From the NCBI GenBank assembly GCA_944325585.1, contig CALVAS010000009.1, forward strand, positions 1-42,339: a stretch of DNA of 42,339 nt, given 5' to 3'. This stretch comes from Candidatus Gastranaerophilales bacterium. GTDB lineage: Bacteria; Cyanobacteriota; Vampirovibrionia; Gastranaerophilales; Gastranaerophilaceae. The position numbers were made by a program, and so were the translations under genes. The notes under the pieces are model-generated. The model saw only the letters and a program-made list of their open reading frames with translations. It was not told the DNA's origin and made no database searches. Shown here one piece after another: positions 17,477-34,976 of this stretch (position 1 is its first letter; each line of letters opens with the position of its first letter).

Positions 17477-18268
17477 TTACCAAGGGTAATCCGGTTTAAT
17501 TTGCCAACCGTCACCAATAATTTTTGCAGAACAGTAACGTCCGTTTCCATTTTTACTGCAGCTGGCAGCAATTTCCACGGGCGTTTTATCATACCCATAA
17601 GGCAGAATACCTTTAGCACTCTTTTCCGATGTTTTTGAAAACATAAACACATCACGCCCTATGCGGTTAGGATTTTTACCACCGTTGACATCGACAATAA
17701 TCCAATCGGCTTCATTCGCTATACCTTCCGGATTATATCCCGCTGTAATAATCAATACAAGAACACCATCCGGCAGATAAAAAGCTGTTCTTGCCGGAGC
17801 TGCAACTACTGAAAAATCAAACTTTGTATTATTCAACTGTGTCCAGGGCTGAGAGATATTAAAGCCACAGTCTTTATATGTCTTGCAAACATGAACAACA
17901 TTTAAATATGGTTTCCAGTATTCGTTAAAATAGTTTTCAGCCCCTATATCAAAACCTGACGGCCAATACTTGTAATCTTCATGATCTACTTCCGAACGTT
18001 CAAGAGCCTGATTGAGTGTTGTATAAACCTTTTGAAGTTTTGAAACAGTTACCTGTTTCTGGTATTTGCCGATTAGCGACGGCAGCGTCATCGCCGCAAC
18101 TATTCCGATTATGCCGAGTGTTATAAGAACCTCTGCCATGGTAAAGGCGGCTTTGCGGCTAGATTTGTCATTTTGGACACCTGAGGTGAGGATGTTTTTA
18201 TCAGCATTGATAGATTCTGAGTCAAGCTCAGAATGACATGATAGATGCACATGCGACGGCTTTGTCAT
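17477..18268 (-). CDS. Type IV prepilin-like protein A, probably phase variable (true start 18410, out of frame here)
   Basis: The mature part is a class of pseudopilin: cleavage is expected before Phe in 'KAA|FTMAEVLITLGIIG', with Glu at position +5 and a hydrophobic helix up to 'AMTLPSLIG'. A globular C-terminal domain of about 180 residues with paired cysteines follows. The -1 residue is Ala, not the usual Gly. The in-frame ATG at 18268 lies inside repeat DNA. The frame stays open upstream to a poly-G tract at 18370-18381. The only start with a good ribosome binding site (AAGGAG, ATG 18410) is on the other side of that tract and is out of frame at 12 G; 11 or 14 G would join them and give a leader of about 88 residues. 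I infer an OFF state, not a dead gene. Confidence 0.8.
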   Translation of the reverse strand: MTKPSHVHLSCHSELDSESINADKNILTSGVQNDKSSRKAAFTMAEVLITLGIIGIVAAMTLPSLIGKYQKQVTVSKLQKVYTTLNQALERSEVDHEDYKYWPSGFDIGAENYFNEYWKPYLNVVHVCKTYKDCGFNISQPWTQLNNTKFDFSVVAAPARTAFYLPDGVLVLIITAGYNPEGIANEADWIIVDVNGGKNPNRIGRDVFMFSKTSEKSAKGILPYGYDKTPVEIAASCSKNGNGRYCSAKIIGDGWQIKPDYPW

Positions 18269-18330
18269 TCCGGCCTCCGAGCCGGAATCTATTTCTTTAT
18301 TTAGAGATTCTGAATCAAGTTCAGGATGAC
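18212..18330. repeat. Three palindromic REP-like repeats inside the prepilin A leader
   Basis: Three short inverted repeats of similar design lie in a row. 18212-18237 has ATTCTGAG and CTCAGAAT arms. 18263-18290 has ATTCCGGC and GCCGGAAT arms. 18305-18330 has ATTCTGAA and TTCAGGAT arms. They belong to the widespread intergenic 'GTCATTCTGA' type palindromes. Here they are in the pilin reading frame, encoding 'HPELDSES', 'EIDSGSEAG' and 'CHSELDSES' without a stop. Confidence 0.75.
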
Positions 18331-18359
18331 CAATTGTTAAATTGTAATCAGGAGCCGTT

Positions 18360-18410
18360 TTACAGGTTGCCCCCCCCCCCCTGAAACTCAGTCATATCAA
18401 TAGTTTCCAT
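18360..18410 (-). other. Prepilin A 5' leader frame, stopped after the poly-G tract
   Basis: ATG 18410 has AAGGAG 9 bases upstream and reads METIDMTEFQ, four Gly codons or part codons, then N-L and TAA at 18362-18360. With one G fewer the frame runs on as G-G-G-A-T-C-K-T-A-P-D into the pilin. Confidence 0.75.
18370..18381 (-). repeat. Poly-G tract (12 G on the coding strand) in prepilin A
   Basis: A run of 12 G, beginning with the third base of codon 10, in a genome region that is otherwise AT rich. Long mononucleotide runs change length by slipped-strand mispairing. At 12 the ATG and the pilin are in different frames; at 11 or 14 they are in the same frame. Confidence 0.85.
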
Positions 18411-18443
18411 ACTTTTAAGCTCCTTATAATATCATTATTGTTT

Positions 18444-34070: not shown

Positions 34071-34826
34071 TTATTTTGAATGCATTTGTTCAATCATTTG
34101 ATTAGTAGTAAGCCCTCCTTTTTCGGCAAGTGAACAAAATAATCCGTCAAGAGTTAGGAATGTTTCTCCTGAATTAATCGTTGTAGTAAACACGAATACA
34201 TCATATCCCCATTTGTTGGGGCCTTTTTTCCCGTTTATATCCACTGTAAACATGGCAAAGTTGTTACTGCTGTAAGGTATTAGTATAACCCCGTTTTTTA
34301 AAACATAAACAATGCTCCCATTTAATAATTCATTTTTTCGCAAACCTGAACAACCGCCTGACTGATTATATGCATCTTCGTCACTCATATCTGTATCACT
34401 GTTTGCCTGCAAAACTGTATCATAACCTTCATAATCAGGAATACAGCCTTTTTGGAAAGCATTACCTTCACAAATTGTAATAACTTGAAGATTTTGCCTG
34501 ATTTTATCTGTAAATAAGTTACATTCATTGAATCTGCCAAACAAATCGTCAGGTACAGGACTTCCATCAGGCAAAGTATACTTTTTACACTTTCCATTAT
34601 CGTCATATTCTACACAAACTCTGCTATAACGTGCCTTTTTCCAGTAATAACATTCAGGAATATATCCTAAATCAGCCCCGATTTTCCCCCAGGCTTGCTG
34701 AATCAATGAATAAGCAACTTTAAACTGTTCTTTTAAAACTTTTTTTTGATAACGTCCAATTAACGAAGGTAAAGTCATTGCAGCAACTATACCGATTATG
34801 CCTAAAGTAATCAAAACTTCTGCCAT
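34071..34826 (-). CDS. Type IV prepilin-like protein B, probably phase variable (true start 34939, out of frame here)
   Basis: Paralogue of prepilin A. From 34826 the frame begins 'MAEVLITLGIIGIVAAMTLP', which is already the mature pilin helix. The codons before it read 'KEFISA|FTMAEV', so cleavage before Phe needs an upstream start. The pilin frame is open back to the poly-G tract at 34904-34917. On the far side ATG 34939 has AAGGAGG 5 bases upstream and a promoter, but at 14 G it is out of frame. With 15 or 12 G the frames join, giving a leader of about 36 residues. The mature protein is about 250 residues with several Cys, including 'CSGLRKNELL' and 'NLFTDKIRQN'. It probably belongs to the same pilus or pseudopilus as prepilin A. 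Confidence 0.85.
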   Translation of the reverse strand: MAEVLITLGIIGIVAAMTLPSLIGRYQKKVLKEQFKVAYSLIQQAWGKIGADLGYIPECYYWKKARYSRVCVEYDDNGKCKKYTLPDGSPVPDDLFGRFNECNLFTDKIRQNLQVITICEGNAFQKGCIPDYEGYDTVLQANSDTDMSDEDAYNQSGGCSGLRKNELLNGSIVYVLKNGVILIPYSSNNFAMFTVDINGKKGPNKWGYDVFVFTTTINSGETFLTLDGLFCSLAEKGGLTTNQMIEQMHSK

Positions 34827-34900
34827 TGTGAATGCTGAAATAAATTCCTTATAATTTGTGATTAAAGAAGGAAAAACCCTCTCAGGAACTGCTTTACGGG

Positions 34901-34939
34901 TTACCCCCCCCCCCCCCGAATTTCAAGTATAGTCTGCAT
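34901..34939 (-). other. Prepilin B 5' leader frame, stopped after the poly-G tract
   Basis: ATG 34939 reads MQTILEIR, four Gly codons and TAA at 34903-34901. One more G would turn the stop into Val and continue as V-T-R-K-A-V-P-E into the pilin. Confidence 0.75.
34904..34917 (-). repeat. Poly-G tract (14 G on the coding strand) in prepilin B
   Basis: A run of 14 G right after codon 7, in AT-rich DNA. It is the longest mononucleotide run in the window, in the same place relative to the pilin as the tract in prepilin A. Confidence 0.85.
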
Positions 34940-34976
34940 TTCAACCTCCTTAAATTAGTTTATCTCGCATTAATTT

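Follow-up and report, generated by a model that had tools for sequence, protein, structure and literature searches.

A leader cassette built around a poly-G tract stands in front of type IV pilin-like genes in a Candidatus Gastranaerophilales genome and its relatives, and in most copies the assembled tract leaves the pilin out of frame with the start codon of the cassette. On balance, it is judged probable that this cassette is a default-OFF phase switch on approximately 38 type IV pilin-like genes, in which the OFF state would re-sequester the Shine-Dalgarno (SD) sequence and the loss of one G would turn a gene ON. More tentative is the fuller form of the proposal, in which the phase switch would be linked to an RNA gate that depends on translation: the G-tract register would set whether ribosomes stop before an anti-SD arm or cross it, so that OFF genes would shut their own ribosome-binding site, with one portable cassette serving dozens of pilins per genome.

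Under this proposal, a ribosome would start at the SD-linked ATG, read a short peptide and enter the poly-G tract. In the usual register the tract would be one G too long, such that the ribosome would exit out of frame, meet a stop 4-14 nt further on and fall off just before a CTCCT arm; base pairing with the freed arm would then shut the SD, giving a tight OFF state. Slipped-strand replication, through the loss of one G or the gain of two, would bring the pilin in frame, and ribosomes would then cross the arm, hold the SD open and make a prepilin with a long leader. Slippage at the tract is probably frequent, the hairpin is predicted both to form and to repress, and the pilins are presumably surface-exposed and selected for expression few at a time.

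The leader cassette and its pilins

The source genome is a Candidatus Gastranaerophilales MAG of 1.76 Mb in 105 contigs, and the window, i.e. the whole stretch of 42,339 nucleotides that was analysed, is one of those contigs. Both poly-G tracts of the sequence-only reading, an earlier examination of the bare letters, lie where it had placed them, on the minus strand, in the two genes here called A and B. Gene A has an SD, AAGGAGCT, read from the sequence at 18418-18425, a start codon ATG at 18408-18410 and a G12 tract at 18370-18381, with the pilin in frame +1 and ON at G11 or G14; a TAA in the OFF frame (18360-18362) lies just 5' of the 3' arm, GCTCCT (18350-18355), which is complementary to AGGAGC of the SD. 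A long leader in the pilin frame (18146-18369) precedes the mature pilin-like protein of 222 aa (17477-18145), and the gene scores above the cut-offs of both PF07963 and TIGR02532. Two palindromic-repeat-like segments of this leader (18212-18237 and 18305-18330) sit in frame, giving the peptides HPELDSES / CHSELDSES, and the leaders of other copies hold similar repeat-like peptides, e.g. CHPEGETRRI, HPEPKAKDL and ILRFAQND.

In gene B, the SD, AGGAGG (34945-34950), was read directly and would form the 5' arm of the proposed hairpin; the ATG (34937-34939) was placed by its spacing from the SD, and its position matches that in homologous copies. With the assembled G14 tract (34904-34917), the pilin lies in frame +2; it would be ON at G12 or G15. 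In the register that is the default of the family, the ATG frame of gene B would end at a TAA at 34894-34896; at the assembled G14 it stops earlier, at 34901-34903. The 3' arm, TTCCT (34884-34888), is a weak complement of the SD with one G-U pair, and the mature pilin-like protein (FTMAEVLITLGIIG...; 253 aa, 34071-34832) is modelled by AF2 at a pLDDT of 91 with a 53-residue N-terminal helix. Genes A and B are both out of frame, i.e. OFF, as assembled, all tract lengths given here being those of the MAG assembly consensus.

A cassette model, built from sequence only, was used to search the genome as well as genus, family and phylum samples, and copies were collected via sequence searches and retrieved stretches. 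The window contains 12 G8 matches, against 0.15 expected, and the source genome yields 38 matches to the model, alongside 39 tracts that are 8 G or longer. Within the genus, the cassette is present in 13 of 14 genomes, the source genome included, at up to 45 copies per genome; it also occurs in 55 of the 146 genomes of the family sample, other genera of the family included. Among the matches listed for the phylum sample (292 genomes), none falls outside the family, and in a named genome collection the cassette pattern matches contigs named Candidatus Gastranaerophilales or Melainabacteria. The leader cassette is a real multi-copy family, more than a two-gene coincidence; the pattern exceeds chance, and the 5' module that had been seen in two paralogues recurs through the source genome, the genus and the family.

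The cassette consensus consists of AAGGAGCT, about 6 nt, ATG AAA AAG CAG ACT ATG ATT GAA TTT CA, G10-14 and CAACCCGCAATAAAGCTCCTGAG, followed by a variable leader and then FT[ML]AEVLITLGIIG, the leaders after the tract varying between about 11 and 260 residues. On contigs that extend far enough, the ORF downstream is type IV pilin-like, the exceptions being a few degenerate copies. The source genome has 52 pilin-like N-termini; among those examined that have no long tract, most start with a short leader directly behind the SD, and in three the cassette is present in an interrupted-tract form. In other genera, some weak matches to the model do not adjoin a pilin; four weak matches there (L183, L185, L187 and L188) are poly-G tracts behind AAACCCTTG-type sequence, mostly not beside a pilin, and are possibly another poly-G element. 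The pilins of the window have the class III prepilin signal FT[ML]AE and an N-terminal helix, and AF2 models of the proteins of genes A and B show helices at residues 3-55 and 3-54 plus a mixed beta domain. A profile search matches geopilin and PilA chains through the helix, and a Foldseek comparison of the AF2-modelled bodies with solved folds gave no significant match (best E 0.22, to a type IVb pilus subunit).

Several irregularities accompany the family. Many contigs of genome G000 have an end that lies some 100 bases or less from a poly-G tract (C7, C17, C38, C43, C45, C59, C65, C68, C71, C73 and C89), as if the repeated cassette broke the assembly there. Two copies at poly-G contig ends (L057 and L130) have G/C-rich, possibly corrupted sequence. 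The copies L053 (C43 end, G10) and L062 (C71 end, G13) are nearly identical in the 3' flank and pilin start and unrelated in their upstream DNA, a pattern that recombination or a chimeric assembly may have produced. On contig C8 of G000, a cassette pilin (L040 / L336) directly follows an intact mutS, whose stop codon lies a few bases before the SD; mutS being intact at 874 codons, slippage was judged not to stem from a loss of MutS.

A conserved OFF register with a frame-specific stop

The register, d, is the offset obtained by subtracting the ATG frame from the pilin frame; it was computed for 175 copies, of which 140 have d=1, 17 have d=0 and 18 have d=2; in other words, 17 copies are in frame and 158 are out. 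Random pairing of tract lengths and flanks would give only 72 +/- 5.6 copies at d=1. Where substitutions in the flanks shift the in-frame lengths, the preferred length moves to 11, 12 or 13 and keeps d=1, as do tracts of G7 and G8. Related copies are not independent, so similar ones were removed at 70%, 65% or 60% identity: the bias remains after removal at 70% (62/80), is weaker at 60% (25/45, p=0.002) and is not significant within the source genome at 60% (4/13). A stop codon within 14 nt past the tract occurs in 94% of cases in the d=1 frame and in 15% in the d=2 frame, an asymmetry that persists after redundancy removal at 60% (46/52 vs 14/52) and is weaker in other genera (81% vs 53%). 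Since the stop of the d=1 register lies 5' of the arm in 142 of 148 copies, d=1 appears to be the one state in which ribosomes usually would not cross the arm. An alternative start in the pilin frame, a TTG, CTG or GTG just 5' of the tract (TGA-NTG), was considered as well; CTG is common there (45/144), ATG never occurs and no SD precedes the site, making such a start unlikely.

Tract length differs by one G between otherwise near-identical modules, namely L031 (G11) and L064 (G12), L042 (G12) and L214 (G13), and L164 (G12) and L165 (G11). Five copies (L100, L103, L150, L166 and L254) have interrupted G tracts (e.g. GGGGAGGGGGGG), mostly still out of frame and with open pilin ORFs, and are candidates for locked-OFF copies. 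The modules are also mosaic: L031 and L064 are alike from the cassette through the pilin helix but not beyond it, an identical body follows different leaders in L222 and L223, and the module of gene A (upstream region, cassette, leader and pilin helix) is ~92-100% identical to one that precedes another pilin body in genome G003. These patterns support the exchange or recombination of 5' modules between paralogues, and the recurrence of the gene A module on a different body bears out the earlier suggestion that the module had been kept or copied.

The main rival to a switch in the DNA is recoding at the RNA level, which is held to be unlikely. Here, the +1 register would itself be the working state, polymerase slippage on the G tract or a +1 ribosomal shift would yield a small, constant fraction of pilin, and the register would be kept for the dose that it sets, with no switching in the DNA. 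Such recoding would fit a register that is strongly conserved over copies, genomes and tract lengths, G7 and G8 included, an ATG frame that ends promptly, as at recoding sites, and downstream ORFs that remain intact despite an out-of-frame consensus. However, slippage by the polymerase should favour d=1 no more than d=2, and yet d=2 is rare, while for a +1 shift of the ribosome a slow codon or a stop codon is normally required at the shift site, whereas the stop here comes 2-4 codons past the tract. Moreover, ~10% of copies have d=0 and ~10% have d=2, and this, along with the one-G differences between near-identical copies, argues that change at the DNA level does happen.

The arm after the tract and its proposed pairing with the Shine-Dalgarno sequence

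The CTCCT arm is the complement of the SD, and arms pair better with their own SD than swapped arms do (z -4.3, p<=5e-5), an advantage that remains after removing similar copies at 65% identity (p=7.5e-4) and that holds within the genus and also within other genera. In a number of copies, SD and arm have changed together: AAGATGA/TCATCTT in L123, AATAAGG/CCTTATT in L193, AGAGG/CCTCT in L126, GAAGG/CCTTC in L040, GGAGGTTAA/TTAACCTCC in L189 and GGAGGT/ACCTCT in L186. The covariation is statistically clear but modest in size; it is not significant in the source genome alone (p=0.39) or among atypical copies alone (p=0.39). No comparable SD complementarity was found in 27 ordinary genes of the window, and at the cassette no known RNA family matched near its gathering score. 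Thermodynamic prediction leaves the SD unpaired at 0.26 with the tail and 0.61 without it, and for roughly one copy in four the predicted partner of the arm is the G tract, not the SD. Some copies (L167, L175 and L258) have a tract and no obvious arm. In the proposed switch, the hairpin would be the reason that d=1 is preferred over d=2, that the stop sits just 5' of the arm and that the arm is frozen at synonymous sites.

It is at the arm that the switch with a hairpin parts from a simpler account, in which these are plain poly-G contingency loci spread by duplication, their flanks are alike only through recent shared ancestry and the complementarity of SD and CTCCT is functionless. Paralogues clearly do share and exchange modules, poly-G phase variation of Bifidobacterium pili has been described without a hairpin (PMC9187656) and covariation is not detectable in the source genome by itself. 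Nevertheless, common descent by itself would not lead one to expect arms that follow the SD of their own copy, synonymous positions that stay invariant amid an otherwise variable tail, or a stop that is present in just one of the two OFF frames, and the simpler account is accordingly held to be quite improbable.

What is conserved after the tract can be read at the level of nucleotides or of peptide, and the sequence-only reading had chosen the peptide. For the A/B pair, its motif x-T-x-K-x-x-P-[DE] is correct (ATCKTAPD in A, VTRKAVPE in B, both in the pilin frame), whereas a recount of the bases after the tract gives 15 of 20 matching and not about 16. The ATG-xxx-ACT-AT that it saw before both tracts is mostly a coincidence of register: the two ACT codons do not occupy homologous positions because the starts lie 22 nt (B) and 29 nt (A) before the tract, and in the cassette alignment CAG-ACT-ATA-CTT-GAA of B stands opposite ATT-GAT-ATG-ACT-GAG of A. 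Of the further copies that it had looked ahead to, there are many, with differing tract lengths, but T-x-K-x-x-P-[DE] is confined to one subclass, other copies reading APENKLL, ASKNSLLK, GNFLGS etc. The peptides of different copies diverge because CTCCT, unchanged as a string of nucleotides, falls in each of the three possible frames with respect to the pilin (59/43/29, among 184 distinct copies). Furthermore, in the Ala-Pro class, 58 of 58 Ala codons are GCT and 57 of 58 Pro codons are CCT; the background shares of these two codons within those pilin ORFs are 31% and 41%. The earlier argument for translation through the tract, which was based on conservation in the ON frame, falls in that respect, as CTCCT spans three frames and has near-invariant synonymous positions; its other half, an open frame through the tract, stands. 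Indeed, one copy with an interrupted tract (L108) has a single continuous in-frame ORF from the SD-ATG to the pilin, which speaks most directly for a tract frame that is meant to be translated through, and several copies have a pilin frame without any other start codon. That the peptide was preserved as a functional leader is highly improbable, for although A, B and the ATRNKAPE/ATRKTAPE subclass do have the motif and the pilin frame is open through the tract, the use of the same nucleotides in other frames gives unrelated peptides in other copies, and together with the frozen synonymous sites this rules out peptide conservation as the driver. The conserved elements after the tract are instead the SD-complementary arm and the OFF-frame stop codon.

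Relation to known systems and biological meaning

The contingency loci of Neisseria, Campylobacter and Helicobacter comprise many unrelated genes with unrelated flanks. Here, unlike in those loci, one portable cassette is attached to a single pilin-like superfamily and brings with it a frame-specific stop and an SD-complementary arm. Common to both these simple-sequence-repeat (SSR) loci (e.g. PMC5953494, PMC6321876) and the cassette genes are poly-G tracts in or near genes for surface structures and ON/OFF control by frame. Closer in setting are the sortase-dependent pilus clusters of Bifidobacterium breve, likewise a gut commensal with an intragenic G tract in a pilus gene, where a G11/G12 tract splits the first pilus gene into two frames and a change in tract length joins them and turns the pili on (PMC9187656). 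That system, however, involves sortase pili at two loci, with no hairpin described (PMC9187656), whereas the Gastranaerophilales genes are type IV pilin-like, number dozens per genome and have a common cassette with a conserved OFF register. In Helicobacter pylori, RepG and tlpB also present a variable G repeat in an mRNA leader under RNA-pairing control, but RepG is an sRNA that acts in trans on the repeat (PMC8295292), while the partner predicted here lies in cis and mainly targets the SD. As for the products, FT[ML]AEVLITLGIIG is the class III signal, followed by a long N-terminal helix, that is likewise found in type IV pilins and pseudopilins (N_methyl PF07963, TIGR02532); they differ from these in a leader of roughly 11 to 260 residues rather than a short one and in a predicted body without a significant match among solved folds.

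The open literature searched held no description of such pilin phase variation in Gastranaerophilales or Melainabacteria, and none of a repeat switch whose OFF state silences its own initiation site. An out-of-frame register that is conserved across genera poses a testable question, namely whether contingency genes are kept OFF by selection on register or are expressed by recoding. If the proposed switch is real, a repeat switch that in its OFF state silences its own initiation site would be an added design feature, and pilus phase variation would occur on a large scale in an uncultured gut lineage related to cyanobacteria, in which default-OFF control of dozens of pilins would favour the expression of few at a time.
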